IMG/VR virus record: IMGVR_UViG_3300047554_000447
Coordinates: 22,349 to 86,348 of that record
Strand: one strand, 5' to 3'
Source of the DNA: a virus
Length of the DNA stretch: 64,000 nucleotides
Under the pieces are notes generated by a model, which did no database searches, had not been told where the DNA came from, and saw nothing but the letters and a program-made list of their open reading frames with translations. The translations under genes were made by a program, and so were the position numbers. Below are positions 6,805 through 59,701 of this stretch, in pieces. The stretch's first letter is position 1. Each line of letters begins with the position of its first letter.

Positions 6805-6838
6805 ATAGATATTGTTAATAACAACGGAGCAATCAAAA

Positions 6839-8041
6839 ATGGCTAAAGCCGCAACCAAAACTCGTGTTACTAAAAAGCAAGTTCAAGCCCACCGTACTCG
6901 TGCCGTAAAAGACACTAGTCCGAATTGGGAGGGTTGCGAATCATGGGATGGCGATAAGTTTCACAAGTATTTTCGTCATGCTATGGACTACCATCGTCTT
7001 GAGAGCGAAATTAAAACCTACAAACCTATCGTAGTTAAATGGATGGAAAGCCAAGGTTGCGCTAAAGCAGACATCGCCGCTATCAAGAAAGTTAAAGATA
7101 ATCGCATCAGCACTACTATGGGAGCTGTTGCTCACTGTCTTACTCGCGGTATGACCCCTCAACGTGCAGATTTTAATAACGGACGTGATACTGCTGAATG
7201 GTTACGTGCAGAAATTGTCAAGGTTATCGCCGACGGTAAAGACGACATTGACCCGGAAGTTGCGGCCGCTGAAAAAGAAGCGTCAAAGGCCAATGTCTAT
7301 GTTCCAACTATTCAAGAACGTGTTCGCGAAGCCGCTTCACGAATGACTGAGGAGATTGAAGACGCTCTCGAGAGCTTTAACGCAGATGCAGAAAACTTTG
7401 ATCCTAAAGCGTTCAAACTGCTAAACCTTCTCAAAGGTAAAGGTGTAAAGGCCGCACATGCTCGTATTATTAAAGACTTCTACTCTAGAGATTTAGACGA
7501 GCTTCTTGAGTTAGCTAGTGGCAAAGCAGATGAGCAACTTCGTGAAGGTTACAGTCACCGTAGTCGCAAACAGATTAAGAACTTGATAGTGTTCTATCAA
7601 GAAATCCATGCGGCCTGTGACATGCTCATGCAAGAAGCAAAGGTTAACAAAAAGCCGCGAGCTCGCAAGACAGTTCCAGCTGAAAAGATCGTAGGTAAGC
7701 TCAAGTACATGAAAACCAACGAGCCTCTCAAGTTAGTCTCTATCAATCCTACAGATATTTTGGGTGCTAAAGAATTGTGGATTTACAATACTAAGACTCG
7801 TAAACTGGGCAAATATGTAGCTTCAGAATTTAACGATCTTGGCGTTAAAGGTACTTCAATTACCGGGTTTGATGAGAATGCCAGCATACAAAAGACTCTG
7901 CGTAAGCCTGAAGAAAAGCTCAAAGAGTTTAAAGCGGCTGGCAAGGTCGCATTACGCAAGTTCTTAGAGGATATCAACGCTGTTGATACCAAAATGAACG
8001 GCCGCATTAACGAAGAAACTATCCTTTTAAAAGTAGCGTAA
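6839..8041 (+). CDS. Conserved-type phage protein, early expressed, function unknown
   Basis: A 400-residue basic protein. The frame is open to a TTG at 6812, but that lies near the expected transcription start; the ATG at 6839, 10 bases after CGGAG, is the better start. The N-terminus is Lys/Arg-rich (MAKAATKTRVTKKQVQAHR), the middle is helical and acidic, and a C-terminal domain (LVSINPTDILGAKELWIYNTKTRKLGKY) looks beta-rich. The perfect sigma70 promoter predicts strong early expression, and the basic N-terminus suggests nucleic-acid contact. No family function is recognised. Confidence 0.82.
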   Translation: MAKAATKTRVTKKQVQAHRTRAVKDTSPNWEGCESWDGDKFHKYFRHAMDYHRLESEIKTYKPIVVKWMESQGCAKADIAAIKKVKDNRISTTMGAVAHCLTRGMTPQRADFNNGRDTAEWLRAEIVKVIADGKDDIDPEVAAAEKEASKANVYVPTIQERVREAASRMTEEIEDALESFNADAENFDPKAFKLLNLLKGKGVKAAHARIIKDFYSRDLDELLELASGKADEQLREGYSHRSRKQIKNLIVFYQEIHAACDMLMQEAKVNKKPRARKTVPAEKIVGKLKYMKTNEPLKLVSINPTDILGAKELWIYNTKTRKLGKYVASEFNDLGVKGTSITGFDENASIQKTLRKPEEKLKEFKAAGKVALRKFLEDINAVDTKMNGRINEETILLKVA

Positions 8042-8049
8042 GGTTCGGT

Positions 8050-8094
8050 AGGGCCATAAGATAAATACTCGAAAGAGAGTATTCTTATGGCCCT
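8050..8094 (+). promoter_or_regulatory. Late-type promoter inside a start-codon-sequestering hairpin
   Basis: AGGGCCATAAG (8050-8060) plus AATACTC (8064-8070) pair with GAGTATT plus CTTATGGCCCT (8077-8094), an 18-bp stem with a 3-base bulge (ATA) and loop GAAAGA. The ATG at 8087 lies in the right arm. GATAAATA (8060-8067), a late-type promoter, lies in the left arm, so RNA started there lacks most of the left arm and cannot form the stem. Confidence 0.75.
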
Positions 8095-9463
8095 AAACAT
8101 CTATGAACCTATGAAATTTCGTAGTCAAGGTATTGAAGACCTTGCTACGCACGAAACGCTAGTTATCACTAACGGAAAAATCACTGTCGACACAGTCGAG
8201 CCTAAAAAAGCGGTGTCTTTTGCGGGTGCGAATTTTGCTGAAATCGAAGGTAATGGCATCCGCTGGACTGACGGTCGCAAGGCAAAAACACTAGCATTTA
8301 AGGAATCAAAGCTCTGGACAGATTTAACTCTTAATCTAGACGAAGAACAAGAATACCAAATCAATAACACTACAGTTTTGAGCTTCACAGAGCTAGGCTC
8401 AACTGTTACTAAAAGTAACCTAAAACAAGTAGGTGTTCTTAAAAATCTAAGAGTAGCCGGAAATGCGTCCTTTGGAGACTTTGCCTATGCTATGGGCAGT
8501 CTAAATCGCTTTGGTATTAACACAGATGCGCCGGGTGCGGCTCTAGGCATTGTTGAAAATTCTGTAGAGATTTTGCTAGGAAGTTTAAAACAAGACACAG
8601 CGATCTTTGGAACACACAGCAACGATCATTTAGAAATCATCACTGATAATACTACTAGAATAACTGTTACAAATTCTGGTGAAGTTGTTATCGGGTCTGC
8701 TAATCATAAGAACGGAATACTTCGTGTAAATGGTACCCTGTATGCTGATGCGATCGTTACAGAAAGATCTAGTCCATTAGTTTTTAAAGAATCAGACACT
8801 AGCTCAAACTACGGTAAAGGAATTATTTGGGCAGGTAAAACTGGTCCAAACAAACAGCTAGTATATCAGGCTAACCCAGATCGCATTTGGTCAACTGATA
8901 TTATTGACCTAGCACAAGAGAAATACTTTGCTATTGAAAACCAGATGGTCTTAAGCAAGACTAGCCTAGGCACTAGCGTAGTTGAAAGCTCATTAACAAA
9001 ATTAGGTATACTTAAAGATCTACAAGTTGCTGGCGATGCGGCGATCACTAGAAAACTTTCAACTAGCAGAATCGAAATAGGCAAGTTCGCTGTCGATGAA
9101 AACCGTTTAGAGTTTGATAGAAACTTTAGCATCCAGCAAGGTACACTAAGTGAATTTAGAATCGGATCAGATATCACTATCGGTAACAGCGACAACACAA
9201 CTAGAGCCGTATCAGTTTACGGTAGACTCGCAGTCGGAACTGCTAGACCCGGTGATGATGTTTCATTAACTGTGTCAGGACCTGTTAGTTTTGAAAACAA
9301 GAAGTTTAAGGTAGGATCTGGAATCCCAACATTTGGTGATTACAACAAAGGAGATGTTGTTTGGAATGACGATCCAAAGGCCGGCAGTCACATAGGCTGG
9401 GTCTGTATCACTGCTGGTTCTCCAGGATTCTGGTTGCCGTTCGGCTATATCGGCTCACGATGA
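8087..9463 (+). CDS. Fibre-like virion protein with internal duplication
   Basis: A 458-residue beta-rich protein resembling tail-fibre or structural proteins of marine T4-like phages. Two segments, around residues 78-128 and 264-317, repeat the same pattern: IWSTDIIDL in the second matches LWTDLTLNL in the first, and both end in LGILKDLQVAGDA or VGVLKNLRVAGNA. The C-terminus (GDVVWNDDP, then GWVCITAGSPGFWLPFGYIG) is a typical fibre tip cap. It is expressed from the late-type promoter in its own leader hairpin. The exact location in the virion is not known. Confidence 0.75.
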   Translation: MALNIYEPMKFRSQGIEDLATHETLVITNGKITVDTVEPKKAVSFAGANFAEIEGNGIRWTDGRKAKTLAFKESKLWTDLTLNLDEEQEYQINNTTVLSFTELGSTVTKSNLKQVGVLKNLRVAGNASFGDFAYAMGSLNRFGINTDAPGAALGIVENSVEILLGSLKQDTAIFGTHSNDHLEIITDNTTRITVTNSGEVVIGSANHKNGILRVNGTLYADAIVTERSSPLVFKESDTSSNYGKGIIWAGKTGPNKQLVYQANPDRIWSTDIIDLAQEKYFAIENQMVLSKTSLGTSVVESSLTKLGILKDLQVAGDAAITRKLSTSRIEIGKFAVDENRLEFDRNFSIQQGTLSEFRIGSDITIGNSDNTTRAVSVYGRLAVGTARPGDDVSLTVSGPVSFENKKFKVGSGIPTFGDYNKGDVVWNDDPKAGSHIGWVCITAGSPGFWLPFGYIGSR

Positions 9464-13441: not shown

Positions 13442-13457
13442 TATTTATAACTAAATA
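13442..13457. promoter_or_regulatory. Back-to-back divergent late-type promoters
   Basis: On the minus strand, TATAAATA (13449 down to 13442) serves the Lys/Pro-rich gene; directly adjoining it on the plus strand, ACTAAATA (13450-13457) lies 5 bases before the SOD start codon. The two 8-base boxes touch with no gap. The minus box is a perfect T4 late element. Confidence 0.7.
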
Positions 13458-33367: not shown

Positions 33368-34075
33368 ATGATAATATTTTTAATGACACTAGTGCTCACG
33401 CACATTACCATTGCCTGTGTTACACTTTATCTGCATCGCAGTCAAGCACACAGAGCAGTAGAATTTAATCCAGTAGTTGCACACTTTATGCGTTTTTGGC
33501 TGTGGCTAACTACAGGAATGGTTACAAAACAATGGGTTGCCATACACCGCAAACACCATAGATTTACAGATCAAGAGGGAGATCCGCACAGTCCCTTAGT
33601 CTATGGCATCAAGCGTGTGTTCTTCAAAGGTGCCGGACTTTATCATTCCGCTAGTAAAGATCGCGAAATGGTGGAACAGTACGGTATAGGCACACCTAGT
33701 GACTGGATTGAACGGAATTTGTACAGCTCACATAGCCGCCTCGGTATTCTTCTAATGCTGATCATAGATCTACTGTTCTTTGGACCGTGGGGCTTAATAG
33801 TGTGGGCTGTACAAATGCTATGGATTCCGTTTTGGGCGGCTGGAGTAGTAAACGGTATCGGACATTGGTGGGGATATCGCAACGGTGAAACTAAAGATGC
33901 TAGCCGTAACATCAGTCCTTGGGGCATTATTATTGGTGGTGAAGAATTGCACAACAATCATCATCTTGCACCAGCTAGTGCTAAACTAAGTGCAAAACCC
34001 TGGGAATTTGATCTAGGATGGTTTTATATACGCACTTTAAGCCTGCTAGGTTTAGCAAAAGTGCGAACCAGCTAA
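33368..34075 (+). CDS. Fatty-acid (acyl) desaturase
   Basis: A 235-residue membrane di-iron desaturase. Three histidine boxes are visible: HRSQAH (23-28), HRKHH (60-64) and HNNHH (near 200), in the arrangement of delta-9 acyl-CoA/acyl-lipid desaturases. Hydrophobic segments flank the boxes. It would introduce a double bond into host membrane acyl chains, raising fluidity. There is no Shine-Dalgarno and a late-type box 4 bases upstream suggests leaderless late expression. It is shorter than many bacterial homologues (about 300 residues), but the core is complete. Confidence 0.9.
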   Translation: MIIFLMTLVLTHITIACVTLYLHRSQAHRAVEFNPVVAHFMRFWLWLTTGMVTKQWVAIHRKHHRFTDQEGDPHSPLVYGIKRVFFKGAGLYHSASKDREMVEQYGIGTPSDWIERNLYSSHSRLGILLMLIIDLLFFGPWGLIVWAVQMLWIPFWAAGVVNGIGHWWGYRNGETKDASRNISPWGIIIGGEELHNNHHLAPASAKLSAKPWEFDLGWFYIRTLSLLGLAKVRTS

Positions 34076-52918: not shown

Positions 52919-53423
52919 TATATTAAAAGAAACCTTGCCTGACTTTGATTTTTCAAATCCCGTGATGGACCCTAGAGATTTGGAAGAACAAATGGTACAG
53001 TTAATGATGCTAGAAAATGGACGAGGCTTGGCTGCTAACCAAGTAGACGTTAGAGCTAGAGTATTTGTTATCAAAACAGAAAAGCTAAACGGAGTAACTA
53101 CACCATTTGCGGTTTTTAATCCAAAAATTCTAGCCGAAGACGAAGAACAAGTTTTAGACTACGAAGGATGTCTAAGTTTCCCCAATCTATTCTTACAGGT
53201 AAAACGTCCAAAACATATTGTAGTCGAATTCCTTGACAGAGACGGAAATCAGTGTATAATAAGATTAGACGACATCGATGCCAGGTGCTTCTTACATGAG
53301 TTAGATCATTTGAACGGTGTGTGTTTTACAGATGGTATTAGTAAATTAAAATTAGACCTAGCACTAAAAAGACAAAGGAAATTAAATGGTAGAACCAAGC
53401 AACGAACTTCAGTTGGTATTTGA
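52890..53423 (+). CDS. def: Peptide deformylase
   Basis: Removes the formyl group from nascent proteins. All three motifs are present: GRGLAANQ (44-51), EGCLS (92-96) and HELDH (136-140), giving the Cys and two His metal ligands and the catalytic Glu. 177 residues, with a normal C-terminal helix. Marine phages carry such genes to process phage or host proteins rapidly; leaderless mRNAs especially may depend on formyl-methionine initiation, though this link is only inference. It overlaps clpA by 38 bases. Confidence 0.93.
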
Positions 53424-55653
53424 AAAAGCAATCGACGTAGCTAAAAAATTACGTCACGAATACCTAACATTAGAGCACCTGCTGTTCGCGATGCTCTGCG
53501 AAGAATCATTTCACAAATGTGTAACTGGGTATGGTGCTGATGCAGACTTTGTTAAGAAAAGTCTTGAACATTATCTTAAAACTAAATTACAGGATATTAC
53601 CCTAGAAGTTGAAGGAGCGAAACCTAAAAAAACCCAAGCCGTTGAAAGAGTACTGAACAGAGCGTTTACACAAGTGCTTTTTAATGGTCGTCAAAAGATT
53701 GAACCAACAGATGTATTCTTAGCAATGATGAGCGAAAAACGTTCATATGCTAACTACTACATTCAACAAGCAGAAATCGACAAAGAAAAATTTGCAGACT
53801 ATCTCAATTCAGAAATGGAAGAAGTTACTGAAGAAGAGCAACAACCGAGAGATAGCCAAGCTGAGAGAGCCCTGAGGTCCTTTAGCACTAACCTTAATGA
53901 ATCAGTTAAGAAGAACAAAGTTGATCCGGTCATTGGCCGCGTTGACGAGCTTGAAAATATTGCTCTAGCATTAGGTCGCAGAAGCAAGTCGAACGTTATC
54001 CTTGTGGGGGATCCAGGCGTAGGCAAGACTGCTATCGCGGAAGGACTTGCTTACAATATCGTTAAAGGTGCTGTTCCAGACTTCCTTAAAGACTATACTG
54101 TCTATAATCTAGATGTAAGTGCTATGTTGGCAGGTAGTAAATACCGCGGAGACTTTGAAGAAAGATTTAAACTGGTTCTCAAAGCCTTAGATAAAAAAGG
54201 TAAAACTGTCTTGTTCATTGACGAAGCACATATGATCAGCGGTGCTGGCGCGGCAGGCGGAAATAGTGCTAACGATCTAAGCAATATGATGAAGCCTGCT
54301 CTTAGCAAGGGTAATATCAAGGTCATTGCTTCAACTACCTGGGAAGAGTATCGCAAGTACTTCGAAAAGGATCGTGCTCTAATGCGCCGCTTCCAGCGCA
54401 TCACGGTTGATGAGCCTAGTAAAGAAATGGCTACGCAGATCCTCAAAGGAATTCGAAAGTACTATGAGCAACATCATAATGTAAAAATTAAAGATGATGC
54501 GATTAATGCGGCTATCAAACTCAGTGTCAAATATCAAACAGATAAGAAATTGCCAGATAAGGCCATTGACTTAATTGACTGCGCATGTTCTAGATTTAAT
54601 TTAAAATCATCTGAAGATCGTGTTGTCGACGAAGCATCAATTCAGTTTGAGTTAAGCAAGATGGTGAACATTCCAGCTGAAACCATTGCCGAACAAGAAT
54701 CGAGCAATCTTGCTAATTTAGAATCTCATCTACAAGAAGAAATCTACGGGCAGGACTCTGCTATCACTGAAATCGTAGATAAAATTCTTGTTAGCCGTGC
54801 AGGACTTAAACCTGAGAATCGACCAGTGGGGGCATTTGTGTTTATGGGCCCAACTGGTACAGGTAAGACTGAAACTGCAAAGTCTCTGGCTAAGAATTTA
54901 GGCGTCAAACTTGTGCGATTTGATATGAGTGAATATCAGGAAAAACACTCAGTATCTAAGCTAATTGGTTCGCCTCCAGGTTATGTTGGCTTTGAAGAAA
55001 ATGCTGGTTTGTTGATCACTAAGATCCAAGAGAATCCTAACTGTGTTCTATTGCTAGACGAAATCGAAAAGTCACATCCTGATGTTTCAACTATCCTATT
55101 ACAGATGATGGATAACGGATTCATTACAGGATCAAATGGAAAACAAGCCGATTGCCGTAATTTAATTCTTATTATCACAACTAATGCTGGCGCACAAGAT
55201 GCTGAAAAACTTAAGATTGGTTTTGGTGAGCAAGAGAAGCAATACAGCGATGATGCTTTGAAGAAATTCTTTGCTCCAGAATTCCGCAATCGTTTAGATG
55301 CAGTTGTAACCTTTGGTAAGCTCACTAAGGAAACAATGATTAAAATCGTTGGCAAGTTTATGCTTGAAGTCCGTGAGCAGGTTAAAGAAAAAGGAATTAA
55401 AGTTAAAATCTCCGATGAAGCAATTGACTGGCTGATTGAAAAGGGCTTTGATTCTAAGATGGGTGCAAGACCGTTACAACGAGTTATTGATAAAGAAATC
55501 AAGCGTCCTCTAGCAAGAATGATGCTGTTTGGAGATCTCAAGAACGGTGGTAATTTAAATATTACTGCCAACGAAACTGGTTTGGCCCTGGCTGTTAAAG
55601 TAAAGACACCTAAGGTTGTAGAAAATGAAGATACCAAAGTCAGTCAAGACTAA
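53386..55653 (+). CDS. clpA: ClpA-type AAA+ unfoldase with ClpP-docking motif
   Basis: Hexameric two-ring unfoldase. An N-domain (LRHEYLTLEHLLFAMLCEES) is followed by D1 (Walker A GDPGVGKT near 208, Walker B VLFIDEAH, arginine RRFQRI) and D2 (Walker A GPTGTGKT near 488, VLLLDEIEK). In D2 the tripeptide IGF (611-613) lies just before FFAPEFRNRLD, where ClpA/ClpX carry the ClpP-docking IGL/IGF loop, so it should feed host ClpP. 755 residues, full length, without the middle domain of ClpB. No phage ClpP is in the window. Confidence 0.93.
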   Translation: MVEPSNELQLVFEKAIDVAKKLRHEYLTLEHLLFAMLCEESFHKCVTGYGADADFVKKSLEHYLKTKLQDITLEVEGAKPKKTQAVERVLNRAFTQVLFNGRQKIEPTDVFLAMMSEKRSYANYYIQQAEIDKEKFADYLNSEMEEVTEEEQQPRDSQAERALRSFSTNLNESVKKNKVDPVIGRVDELENIALALGRRSKSNVILVGDPGVGKTAIAEGLAYNIVKGAVPDFLKDYTVYNLDVSAMLAGSKYRGDFEERFKLVLKALDKKGKTVLFIDEAHMISGAGAAGGNSANDLSNMMKPALSKGNIKVIASTTWEEYRKYFEKDRALMRRFQRITVDEPSKEMATQILKGIRKYYEQHHNVKIKDDAINAAIKLSVKYQTDKKLPDKAIDLIDCACSRFNLKSSEDRVVDEASIQFELSKMVNIPAETIAEQESSNLANLESHLQEEIYGQDSAITEIVDKILVSRAGLKPENRPVGAFVFMGPTGTGKTETAKSLAKNLGVKLVRFDMSEYQEKHSVSKLIGSPPGYVGFEENAGLLITKIQENPNCVLLLDEIEKSHPDVSTILLQMMDNGFITGSNGKQADCRNLILIITTNAGAQDAEKLKIGFGEQEKQYSDDALKKFFAPEFRNRLDAVVTFGKLTKETMIKIVGKFMLEVREQVKEKGIKVKISDEAIDWLIEKGFDSKMGARPLQRVIDKEIKRPLARMMLFGDLKNGGNLNITANETGLALAVKVKTPKVVENEDTKVSQD

Positions 55654-56278
55654 GAATACAACTAGATTATTTTTCAACCAATACAAGTATAAAATTGTAT
55701 TGGTTTGTGCGGCGGCGCATTTCTTTAGAGGAAATAATCTAGAGTATGCTAAAGAACGAGTTGACTTTCTTAAAGCAACTAATACTGTGCCTTCTGGGTG
55801 GAACAAAAAGGTTCTTAATAAAGAAGAAATTGACTTTGCAGAATCTCTGATTAAAAACTTTTCTAACATGTCTGATTATTCTGTAAGGGTAGAATCTCCA
55901 TTGTTGAGTTTTTATACTAACTCTGATAAGGATGCTGAACTAGTTTTAAAATTAGATACTAGTAAAGTCAAATATTTTAGCTATCCAGAATCCGTTGAAA
56001 CAGAGACTAATCTAGGAACTAACAAAGTTCTAACTAAAAAGATAGATTTTGATTACAAAATTACTATGGGCAGGACTCGTGATAGTTTTATAAGTTTCCT
56101 AGACTGGTGTGAAAATAATCCTAAGATACGCATGCCTAAACGTGCGAAACGAGATTTAGAAAGAAGTCACAGCTGGGGTGGTTCTTATTTCTACGTAAAA
56201 GACGCTAAAACGCTAACTTTAGTAAAGTTATTCGTAGGTAGTTACATAAACAAAGTAGAAAACGTAGTAAAAATCTAA
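55625..56278 (+). CDS. Conserved-type phage protein, function unknown
   Basis: A 217-residue protein beginning inside the end of clpA (29-base overlap, ATG at 55625). KYKIVLVCAAAHFFRGN, then WGGSYFYVKDAKTLTLVKLF near the C-terminus are the strongest segments. It is fairly basic with alternating beta-strands; no motif is recognised. It closes the chaperone module. Confidence 0.72.
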   Translation: MKIPKSVKTKNTTRLFFNQYKYKIVLVCAAAHFFRGNNLEYAKERVDFLKATNTVPSGWNKKVLNKEEIDFAESLIKNFSNMSDYSVRVESPLLSFYTNSDKDAELVLKLDTSKVKYFSYPESVETETNLGTNKVLTKKIDFDYKITMGRTRDSFISFLDWCENNPKIRMPKRAKRDLERSHSWGGSYFYVKDAKTLTLVKLFVGSYINKVENVVKI

Positions 56279-56300: not shown

Positions 56301-56330
56301 TCCCTCTTACGATAAATATTGTAAGAGGGA
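56301..56330 (+). promoter_or_regulatory. Hairpin with a late promoter as loop, over the ribosome site
   Basis: TCCCTCTTAC (56301-56310) and GTAAGAGGGA (56321-56330) form a perfect 10-bp stem. The 10-base loop (56311-56320) begins with GATAAATA, a late-type promoter. The right arm holds the GAGGG ribosome site of the ATG at 56337. RNA started at the loop has only the right arm, so the site is free. Confidence 0.78.
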
Positions 56331-56336
56331 TTTCTT

Positions 56337-56786
56337 ATGACTAAGACACTTTTAGAGTACATTGAAGAAGTTGAACTAGCTGGAGACGAAAGCGATATTT
56401 CAGCAGGTGACGGCTTTGACATTGAAATCAGCGAAGATGCTGTTATTGAAACTACTGTTATCGACTCATGGGATGACAGCATTCTTATCAGTCTAGATTC
56501 TACAGCGATCGCTATGCTGTCAGAAGCTAACATCGAACTTATCACCGAAGCAGAATATCAGGGCAGAAAAGTACCGTTAGGTAAGCCTATGAAGGGTGAT
56601 GTTAAAAAATCTAAGGTTTATGTAAAAGGCCCTAAAGGTAATGTAGTCAAAGTTAACTTTGGCGACAAAAAGTTGAGCATTAAAAAGCATATTCCAGGAA
56701 GACGTAAAAATTTCCGGGCTCGTCATAATTGCGATAATCCAGGTCCACGCTGGAAAGCAAGATACTGGTCTTGTAGGGCATGGTGA
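56337..56786 (+). CDS. Putative head-associated protein with compact basic C-terminal domain
   Basis: A 149-residue protein. The N-terminus TKTLLEYIEEVELAGDE is an acidic amphipathic helix like T4 capsid-targeting peptides. The middle is acidic, while the last 85 residues are basic: GRKVPLGKPMKGDVKKSK, then KKHIPGRRKNFRARHNCDNP and WKARYWSCRAW, a compact Cys/Trp domain widespread in T4-like marine phages. Its leader is a switchable hairpin. A role inside the capsid or in DNA packing is inferred. Confidence 0.72.
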   Translation: MTKTLLEYIEEVELAGDESDISAGDGFDIEISEDAVIETTVIDSWDDSILISLDSTAIAMLSEANIELITEAEYQGRKVPLGKPMKGDVKKSKVYVKGPKGNVVKVNFGDKKLSIKKHIPGRRKNFRARHNCDNPGPRWKARYWSCRAW

Positions 56787-56787
56787 T

Positions 56788-57123
56788 ATGAAAGTATTTG
56801 AAATCTTTAGTCAAAATATAGAAGATAAAAAGATCGACTTTGATCTTGCGGATGACGTTATCTATTTCATGAACAACGATCCGGAATTCTATAGAAAAGA
56901 ATATTTTCCATTTCTAACTAAATTCCAGCATCATTGCGATGCTGGCCGCCAGGTAACTCCAAAAGCATTTTTCCCAGTAGTTAAACGAGCAGTCGAAAAT
57001 TACAAATTAAAGTTTCCAATGAATGAACTTGAAGAAGCATTAAACGATGGACAAATTACAGAAATCTGTGAAAAACTACAAACACAAGAGCTAGCTAATT
57101 ACCACAATCAAAAAGAGAAATGA
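56788..57123 (+). CDS. Small phage protein with targeting-type N-terminus
   Basis: A 111-residue helical protein starting MKVFEIFSQNIEDKKIDFD. FPFLTKFQHHCDAGRQVTPK and VVKRAVENYKLKF are the core. It lies one base after the preceding stop. The N-terminal pattern (M-x-x-x-E-I-F-x-x-x-I-E-D) is like those of the neighbouring genes; the body resembles a conserved helical domain of cyanophage proteins. Function unknown. Confidence 0.7.
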   Translation: MKVFEIFSQNIEDKKIDFDLADDVIYFMNNDPEFYRKEYFPFLTKFQHHCDAGRQVTPKAFFPVVKRAVENYKLKFPMNELEEALNDGQITEICEKLQTQELANYHNQKEK

Positions 57124-57124
57124 T

Positions 57125-58423
57125 ATGTTATTAAGAGAAATGTTTGAAGATAAAGGCCAAAGTGTTGGTTTAATATTTGGTCGTTTTAATCCTCCGCATC
57201 GTGGACACAGAGCCGCTTGGGAATTAGCTAGCGAAAATGAGCATTGGTTTGTTGGCACTAACGAAAGCACACAAGGTCCTAAAGACCCACTACCATTTAA
57301 AATAAAAGTAGAAGCTATGAAAACAATCTGGCCTGATGTAGACGGTCATATCGTAGCTGATACTAGTTGGTTAACTCTTGCCAGTAAGATTTACAAAAAG
57401 TTTGGCGATGTGACTCTAAATGTCTATACTGACGAAGATTGGGTTACAAAAACTATTCAACAGTATAACGGCAAAGAAGGTCCACACGGAGTTTATAAAT
57501 TTTCAAAAATTAATCAAGTTCCTACTCCTAGACTAAGTTCTGCTACTGCTCTAAGAGCGGCTGTACAGTCTGGAGATAGAGAAGCATTTTCAAGAGCCGC
57601 AGGCGTTCCTGCAGATACAGAAGTTGCTGGACAACCATTCTTTGATCTGGTTGCAGAATATCTGTTACCTTATGCCGAAAAAGAAAAAGCCAAAGCTGAA
57701 AAGAAAAAGAAAAAAGAACCGGTAGCAACAGAAGGCGTTATCAATATGATGGAGTTAGCTAAGAAAGCTAAATCTATGCTAAACAATGGTATGTCTGAAC
57801 AGCAAGTTCAATCGGAACTTGTTAAAAGTGGCGTTCCTTCTAGACTTGCCGCACAAGCTGTTCAAATGGCACAGATGCAAGAGACTGTAGCTTTAGAAGC
57901 ACCTATCGAAATGGATCCAGCTGATCCAATGGATCCAATGATCTACGGACACGAAAAAGCTAATCCAGGAAAACTAAAATATCGAATGATGCGAGCCGAA
58001 CGTCAATTGTCTGATCTTGCTGATCGCGCTAAGAATGCCAGTCCAGCAGAATGGCAACTTATCAGCAGACAGTTCAGCGAACTAGCGATGAACATTAATC
58101 AAATTAAACACGGCCTAGAAGAGTTAGCTAAAGTAAGACGCAAAGGCGGAGTTCGTAGTCGAGGTATAGATACAATGATTGATAGCGTAAGCGAACGAGT
58201 AAGAGATCCGGAAGATTGGGATGAAGGCAATACTGAGCCTCCCAATAATTTTGCTGTTTATATCAATGGTAAGAAGTGGAAAGTATTTCCAGGCAGAGGC
58301 CGTTATGCCGATGACGAAAGAGAAAGAAAACAGTATTATGATCTTAGAGCATGGGCTCAACGTAAATCCGAAGCCACTGGTAAAAAGTGGACTGTTTCTA
58401 TTACCGGTGAATCACCAACTTAA
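57125..58423 (+). CDS. NMN adenylyltransferase-like nucleotidyltransferase with C-terminal extension
   Basis: N-terminal 180 residues: SVGLIFGRFNPPHRGHRAAW gives the HxGH motif (His25, His28), and RLSSATALRAAV is the second nucleotide-binding motif (S-x-T-x-x-R type). This resembles NMN adenylyltransferases of the NadM/NadR kind used for NAD salvage in some T4-like phages. A Lys/Glu linker leads to about 230 further residues, ending in a small beta-domain (NFAVYINGKKWKVFPGRG) and WAQRKSEATGKKWTVS. The N-terminus MLLREMFEDKG is of the capsid-targeting type. Substrate not provable by eye. Confidence 0.78.
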   Translation: MLLREMFEDKGQSVGLIFGRFNPPHRGHRAAWELASENEHWFVGTNESTQGPKDPLPFKIKVEAMKTIWPDVDGHIVADTSWLTLASKIYKKFGDVTLNVYTDEDWVTKTIQQYNGKEGPHGVYKFSKINQVPTPRLSSATALRAAVQSGDREAFSRAAGVPADTEVAGQPFFDLVAEYLLPYAEKEKAKAEKKKKKEPVATEGVINMMELAKKAKSMLNNGMSEQQVQSELVKSGVPSRLAAQAVQMAQMQETVALEAPIEMDPADPMDPMIYGHEKANPGKLKYRMMRAERQLSDLADRAKNASPAEWQLISRQFSELAMNINQIKHGLEELAKVRRKGGVRSRGIDTMIDSVSERVRDPEDWDEGNTEPPNNFAVYINGKKWKVFPGRGRYADDERERKQYYDLRAWAQRKSEATGKKWTVSITGESPT

Positions 58424-58641: not shown

Positions 58642-59072
58642 AAATTATAGAAATAATTTCAGAGAGCGTTGAACTCGATGAAAGAAAAAAGAAAAAACGT
58701 AAAAAAGTAAAGTCTGCGGCCTATGGTCCAGGACCTTACGGTATGTACGGAACTGCTGTAGGTTACAGCGGAGAAGGTGGTGATGGTGGCGGAGTTGGCG
58801 AGGGATTAGAAGAACATAAGAAAGGTGTTCGTGCAAGAATCTATAATAAAAAACCAAAGGCATATATCGAACCACCGAAAACTCCAAAAGTTGAAGAAAA
58901 CTTTGCGGATGGAAAAAATCCGCAGGATAAAGGTGACAGTAAGCGTCACGGAATACCAAAGGGTGCTAGTATATCACAGCTTAAAAAGATAAGAAGCAGT
59001 GACTCTGCCAGTCCACGCAAGAAACAGCTTGCACACTGGCAAATTAACATGAGACAAGGAAAACAAAAATGA
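58638..59072 (+). CDS. Small basic phage protein with KRHGIPKG domain
   Basis: A 144-residue basic protein. The N-terminus MKIIEIISESVELDE is targeting-like and is followed by a poly-Lys patch (KKKKRKKVKS) and a Gly/Tyr stretch. The C-terminal 55 residues (GDSKRHGIPKGASISQLKK then RKKQLAHWQINMRQGK) are a small basic domain found in many phage and giant-virus proteins, which may bind nucleic acid. Directly coupled to the endolysin (4-base overlap). Confidence 0.72.
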   Translation: MKIIEIISESVELDERKKKKRKKVKSAAYGPGPYGMYGTAVGYSGEGGDGGGVGEGLEEHKKGVRARIYNKKPKAYIEPPKTPKVEENFADGKNPQDKGDSKRHGIPKGASISQLKKIRSSDSASPRKKQLAHWQINMRQGKQK

Positions 59073-59701
59073 GCTTTGAATTTGATTTCACTTTAGACAA
59101 ATTAACAGAATGTGTTCATAAGAACAAAGAACCAGAACTATGGTACAACGCTCTTTGTGAGTATCTACCACAGTTTCAAATTACGACTCCTGCTAGAGTA
59201 GCAGGATTTATCGCACAATGCCAACACGAAAGTTTAGATTTTACATTCCTACAAGAAAATTTAAATTATAGTGCCAAAGGCTTAATGGGAATTTTTAAAA
59301 AGTATTTCCCTACAGAGGATATAGCTAATGCTTATGCTCGTAAACCTCAAATGATTGCTAATCGTGTTTATTCGAGTCGTATGGGCAACGGAGACGAAGC
59401 CAGCGGCGACGGTTGGAGATTTAGAGGCAGAGGCATTCTTCAAATCACAGGAAGATCAAATTATACACAGTGTTCGAGAGATCTATTTCAAGATGATACA
59501 CTTGTAAACGATCCTGATCTGCTAAGAACACCAGAATACGCTGTATTAACAGCCTGTTGGTTCTGGCACAAGAACGGATTAAATCAGATCTGTGACAAGG
59601 GCGATATTGTATTATTAAGTAAACGCATCAACGGCGGTACTATCGGTTTAGAAGATCGTATTGCACATTGGAACATTGCCCTGGACTTATTTGAGGCTTA
59701 A
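59069..59701 (+). CDS. Glycoside hydrolase 19-type endolysin
   Basis: Cleaves the beta-1,4 glycan of peptidoglycan at lysis. AGFIAQCQHESLDFTFLQEN with NYSAKGLM contains the first catalytic Glu region of GH19 enzymes, and RFRGRGILQITGRSNY is the family substrate-cleft block; the C-terminus has CWFWHKNGLNQICDKGD and KRINGG. 210 residues, a single catalytic domain with no signal peptide, so export needs a holin; the candidate is at 51459. Confidence 0.9.
   Translation: MSFEFDFTLDKLTECVHKNKEPELWYNALCEYLPQFQITTPARVAGFIAQCQHESLDFTFLQENLNYSAKGLMGIFKKYFPTEDIANAYARKPQMIANRVYSSRMGNGDEASGDGWRFRGRGILQITGRSNYTQCSRDLFQDDTLVNDPDLLRTPEYAVLTACWFWHKNGLNQICDKGDIVLLSKRINGGTIGLEDRIAHWNIALDLFEA

Follow-up and report, generated by a model that had tools for sequence, protein, structure and literature searches.

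Several late genes of phage T4, namely e, soc, 49 and I-TevI, share a design in which read-through RNA buries the Shine-Dalgarno sequence or AUG (PMC3014915). The DNA that encodes the hairpin's 5' strand contains the late promoter, as has been shown for e and I-TevI, and late RNA escapes (PMC3014915). PMC2988022 also covers hairpin-regulated late genes of T4, and it describes T4-type intrinsic terminators as having a GC-rich stem base, a 4-nt loop and a U-tract. The original prediction for the locus studied here appealed to the T4 design at e, soc and I-TevI, a precedent that is in print (PMC3014915; PMC2988022). When part of T4 was scanned for this layout, it was found at e and I-TevII. The soc gene gave no signal in the same scan (-4.6, 43/60 shuffles as good), so the pairing measure used here misses known cases.

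The DNA analysed, referred to as the window, is a 64,000-nt stretch of an uncultured T4-like phage, and the element of interest lies at 56301-56336 on its plus strand. Like T4 e, soc, 49 and I-TevI, this element is predicted to bury a Shine-Dalgarno sequence and AUG in read-through RNA and to let late RNA escape, but it differs from them in its terminator-like U-tract, in its conservation beyond the gene it covers, and in its polycistronic operon with an endolysin gene. T4 I-TevII is similar in that its box, TATAAATA, overlaps the loop and inner stem and its right arm holds GAGG, but its leader serves a single intron ORF and has a stem without a U-tract in the stretch inspected. With T4-type terminators, the 56301 element shares the GC-rich stem base, 4-nt loop and U-tract; unlike them, it carries a promoter in its loop and inner stem and a 3' arm that doubles as a ribosome site. 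The T4 trick is known, and its fusion with a terminator looks new: a weak search, covering titles and abstract beginnings of open-licence PMC articles, found no description of a late promoter within a terminator loop.

Hairpin, promoter box and ribosome site

The element consists of TCCCTCTTAC (56301-56310), GATAAATATT (56311-56320), GTAAGAGGGA (56321-56330) and the U-rich tract TTTCTT (56331-56336), followed by an ATG at 56337. Direct reading of the sequence bears out the prediction of a perfect 10-bp stem between the left arm (56301-56310), which would be present solely in read-through RNA, and the right arm (56321-56330), and A56300-U56331 adds one further pair. The hairpin at 56301-56330 is confirmed as real: its fold energy is -26.7 kcal/mol against -15.2 ± 2.9 for shuffles (z -4.0), with none of 200 shuffles matching its stability, and its pairing across the predicted RNA start is -21.2 kcal/mol, a value reached in none of 1000 trials in which the upstream 45 nt were shuffled. 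The promoter box GATAAATA (56311-56318) had been thought to coincide exactly with the loop, but in the minimum-free-energy fold the pairs G56311-U56320, A56312-U56319 and U56313-A56318 enclose an AAAU tetraloop, so the box is partly stem and spans both the loop and the inner stem.

The window contains eight copies of ATAAATA, mostly immediately 5' of gene starts, as expected for a T4-type late promoter, while shuffles give 21. Both this avoidance and the placement before gene starts make GATAAATA credible as a late promoter box. The depletion extends across the whole window, which suggests that there may be selection against stray late promoters. T4 late promoter spacing, which we take to be six bases past the box end, puts the predicted start (+1) at 56324, inside the right arm, so late RNA would lack the left arm and keep only the right, as originally proposed. 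Under T4 numbering, the first base of the box is -13 (PMC2988020). For cyanophage S-PM2, the motif in print is NATAAATA (PMC2984593). Matches to the late sigma family phrog_234 were found in 4/9 records, the four longest, including that of L106, which belongs to group A (defined below); the window's own record, which is partial (86 kb), had no match to a gp55-type late sigma.

The right arm was also predicted to be the ribosome site, and it does contain the Shine-Dalgarno sequence GAGGG (56325-56329), so that a stable hairpin carries this sequence in its 3' arm, as in the T4 e/I-TevI type. By computation, the region from +1 to the AUG would take 17-20 kcal/mol to open in read-through RNA vs 3-5 kcal/mol in RNA beginning at 56324.

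Genes around the hairpin

The operon upstream includes a ClpA-like AAA+ ATPase gene (53386-55653; phrog_4871 'ATP-dependent protease', E 4e-254), the product of which is 72-85% identical in group-A relatives. The last gene 5' of the hairpin is ORF217 (55625-56278), which has 54 homologous loci and no match in PHROG or Pfam profile searches. Downstream, the putative late operon starts with ORF149 (56337-56786; phrog_7595, E 3.5e-8, function unknown) and ORF111 (56788-57123), the conserved next gene in relatives, and continues to a cytidyltransferase-like gene (57125-58423; phrog_3041, E 4e-15) and an endolysin gene (59069-59701; phrog_181, E 1e-76), all of these genes being on the plus strand. 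No other ATAAATA box lies between the one at 56311 and the endolysin gene.

Two further observations concern the window's proteins. The C-terminal 80 residues of ORF149 (56541-56786; phrog_7595) are found again in at least 600 stretches, many of them in phage proteins that differ in all other respects, and resemble a shared tag or domain. Elsewhere, at 33368-34075, the window encodes a fatty acid desaturase domain (PF00487, E 2.5e-16).

Conservation in related phages

Orthologs of ORF149 were tried first (80 of at least 600 stretches), but few of their upstream regions were related, the common domain being part of different proteins. We therefore used the syntenic upstream gene, ORF217. Of its 54 homologous loci in viral contigs, 42 have a box right behind ORF217 and the other 12 have none. 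The 42 boxed loci yielded 33 distinct regions, to which the window was added, and the 16 rows with a long stem around the box (window included) form group A. An endolysin gene lies downstream in 10/15 group-A relative loci, a count that an endolysin farther on would escape because several loci end <4 kb past the box.

Among isolated phages, tblastn against 50,697 records found no ORF217 homologs, and there were no near DNA matches to the window. The isolated relatives phiN3, DLP6, BUCT-ZZ01 and PA5oct had no clear embedded hairpin in any 25-kb stretch, three of the four stretches having few or no boxes. A search of viral contigs for the exact inner palindrome was set aside, as it gave three contigs with one identical, unrelated sequence.

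For covariation, 15 of the 16 group-A rows were anchored at the stem base, giving 11 distinct arm pairs. In these, 119/121 stem cells are paired, vs a mean of 97.3 when arms are swapped between phages, and none of 10000 swap trials reached 119; 24 cells are double changes. A check on eight rows gave 97.3% pairing in the rows' own register vs 48-62% when slid. The energy of own vs swapped arms is -20.4 vs -14.3 kcal/mol in group A, while the own-arm advantage is slight in group B and nil in the seven rows of group C (own -7.7, cross -8.1). Uncompensated stem changes in homologous phages would have spoken against the original prediction, and it passed this check: changes in the stem are compensated.

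The dyad centre at 56301-56330 coincides with the promoter, as it would if the palindrome were a repressor operator in DNA that overlaps the late promoter and has no RNA role; in T4, autorepression by I-TevI at its late promoter is in print (PMC2988022). However, 13 of the 119 paired cells (hand count) are G-U, a pair that is compatible with a stem in RNA but not with a palindrome in DNA and so points to RNA. The arm sequences also vary while pairing persists, and an operator leaves the U-tract unexplained, so we consider this reading very improbable.

A more serious alternative is a ribosome-site lock and nothing else, of the T4 gene e or I-TevII type, with the U-tract a mere spacer before the ATG. 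It has a T4 precedent in print (PMC3014915; PMC2988022), a matching layout at I-TevII and e in our scan, and a second locus of the same genome with a predicted lock but no U-tract (see below). Against it, ORF149 is absent from 14/15 group-A relative rows, with only L118 and the window keeping it. Eight of the 16 rows (L098, L100, L101, L102, L111, L113, L126 and L144) have no ATG at the ORF149 start site, yet in the seven of these that belong to the covariation set all 77 stem cells pair. A tract with at least 5 T in 7 is also rare at ordinary gene starts that have a Shine-Dalgarno sequence (18/605). Because stem and U-tract are kept without ORF149 or its ATG, hiding one ribosome site cannot be the sole selected function, and a lock alone is unlikely. 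The original reading of a T4-type lock is thus partly supported: the box, the arms, the T4 precedents and the covariation speak for it, but it was too narrow, as it cannot be the whole function where ORF149 is mostly absent.

Past the hairpin in L096, L097, L099, L103, L105 and L108, the ORF149 start often survives as a mini-ORF. Where ORF149 is gone, these mini-ORFs have 2 to 9 codons and end near the ORF111 start (read by eye), possibly serving translational coupling.

Terminator features

An intrinsic terminator would account for what ribosome-site hiding leaves over. The 56301 hairpin has a GC-rich stem base with a U-tract immediately after it, although the tract is interrupted (TTTCTT). 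On a terminator score for which positive means above 0, it reaches 11.9, the 5th highest value among the window's 41 terminator-like sites. Scores are positive in 10/16 group-A rows (the other six ranging from -2.5 to -17.5), in 0/18 other rows at the ORF217 locus and in 0/42 rows at the second locus, and no terminator-like hairpin was found in the 18 rows of groups B and C. Other relatives thus lack the gate at this locus or have it in another form. A U-rich tract follows every group-A stem; 15/16 rows have 5 or more T in 7, and L105 has 4. Judging from these features, the hairpin would probably also stop transcription in RNA made too early.

Could it then be a terminator only, closing the ClpA operon, with the promoter in the loop by chance and ribosome-site hiding incidental? 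Its rank in the window and the conservation of the stem in rows without a start codon fit this view. However, in both the window and L118 a full gene has its ribosome site in the right arm, and the window's opening cost differs by about 14 kcal/mol, which would take effect with or without selection for it. In addition, two other late promoters of the record have predicted locks without a terminator-like tail. We therefore regard a terminator alone as distinctly unlikely, even more so than a lock alone.

Proposed mechanism

The reading we favour, and think somewhat more probable than its rivals together, is that one element combines a terminator, a ribosome-site lock and a late promoter, which would silence late and lysis genes in read-through RNA. 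On this reading, the gate at 56301-56336 would silence the late operon, from ORF149 to the endolysin gene, in any read-through from the ClpA/ORF217 operon. The arms would pair in read-through RNA, and the hairpin and U-tract would act as an intrinsic terminator; RNA that passed it would have its Shine-Dalgarno sequence buried in the stem, blocking translation. A late sigma factor acting at GATAAATA would start RNA within the right arm, at about 56324, with the Shine-Dalgarno sequence at its extreme 5' end. Such RNA would lack the left arm and so be neither terminated nor locked.

Other promoters embedded in hairpins

A second promoter-embedded hairpin lies at 8049-8095 on the plus strand, with its box at 8060-8067; the gene at 8087 has its ATG within the right arm. 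Its cross-start pairing is -24.3 kcal/mol (0/1000 shuffles), opening costs 22 kcal/mol in read-through RNA vs 3 in late RNA, and this predicted lock has no U-tract. The gene upstream, at 6812-8041, had been a candidate major capsid protein, an assignment we dropped, as its homologs in isolates bear the label hypothetical protein.

Among the best 80 of 364 relatives of that gene, 61 loci had a box and reduced to 41 distinct regions, whereas 17 had none and two could not be judged. With the window this gave 42 rows. All 23 rows without an upstream terminator pair across the start at -14.4 kcal/mol or lower, whereas the 19 with an intrinsic terminator upstream have a median of -10.0, and 18 of the 19 pair more weakly. 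Terminator and strong embedded hairpin are therefore nearly mutually exclusive at this locus (p 1e-7). The upstream gene's best tree implies 10 state changes, at least four of them on starred branches, but the true number may be smaller, since the intergenic cassette may travel with the downstream gene. When independent pairs are compared, the hairpin tracks the terminator in about 3.9/4 and the opposite never occurs, too few cases for significance. Downstream of the 6812-8041 homolog in L218, there is a strong hairpin with CTAAATA in its loop instead of ATAAATA; this is perhaps a variant late box, which our scan counted as box-less.

The same record holds another embedded late promoter outside the window and upstream of it, in L240 (13/1000 shuffles). 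There, a ClpP-like gene (L240:848-1468, recognised by sequence) is followed by a late box at 1500 inside a predicted lock; the window's ClpA-like gene likewise precedes an embedded late box, one gene later. Neither the 8060 nor the L240 lock has a terminator-like tail. The record's other boxes with a nearby start codon showed no cross-start pairing beyond shuffles, with one weak exception at 13449 on the minus strand (31/1000 shuffles).

We also surveyed 179 de-duplicated box-to-start sites from all loci, calling pairing unusual if it beat at least 59/60 upstream shuffles. This was the case for 32/179 boxed starts vs 11/300 box-less control starts (Fisher p 2.7e-7). With the two studied loci set aside, it held for 11/132 sites, a modest enrichment. 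On a distant contig, at L148:3369, CATAAATA is enclosed by a long perfect stem ahead of an ATG, with cross-start pairing of -17.6 kcal/mol (0/60 shuffles).

Implications for late gene control

A broader claim is about as likely as not: that an element of about 40 bp is put to triple use, initiation at its own promoter dismantling both blocks, and that this lineage swaps terminators and embedded locks as equivalent barriers to untimely expression of late and lysis genes. These results suggest that the T4 lysozyme-type gate is more than a T4 curiosity, and that uncultured T4-like phages use it repeatedly, with covarying stems, at several of their late operons. Loci that carry a terminator or a lock, and rarely both, constitute a natural experiment, through which the purpose of these hairpins, blocking premature late expression, becomes directly testable.
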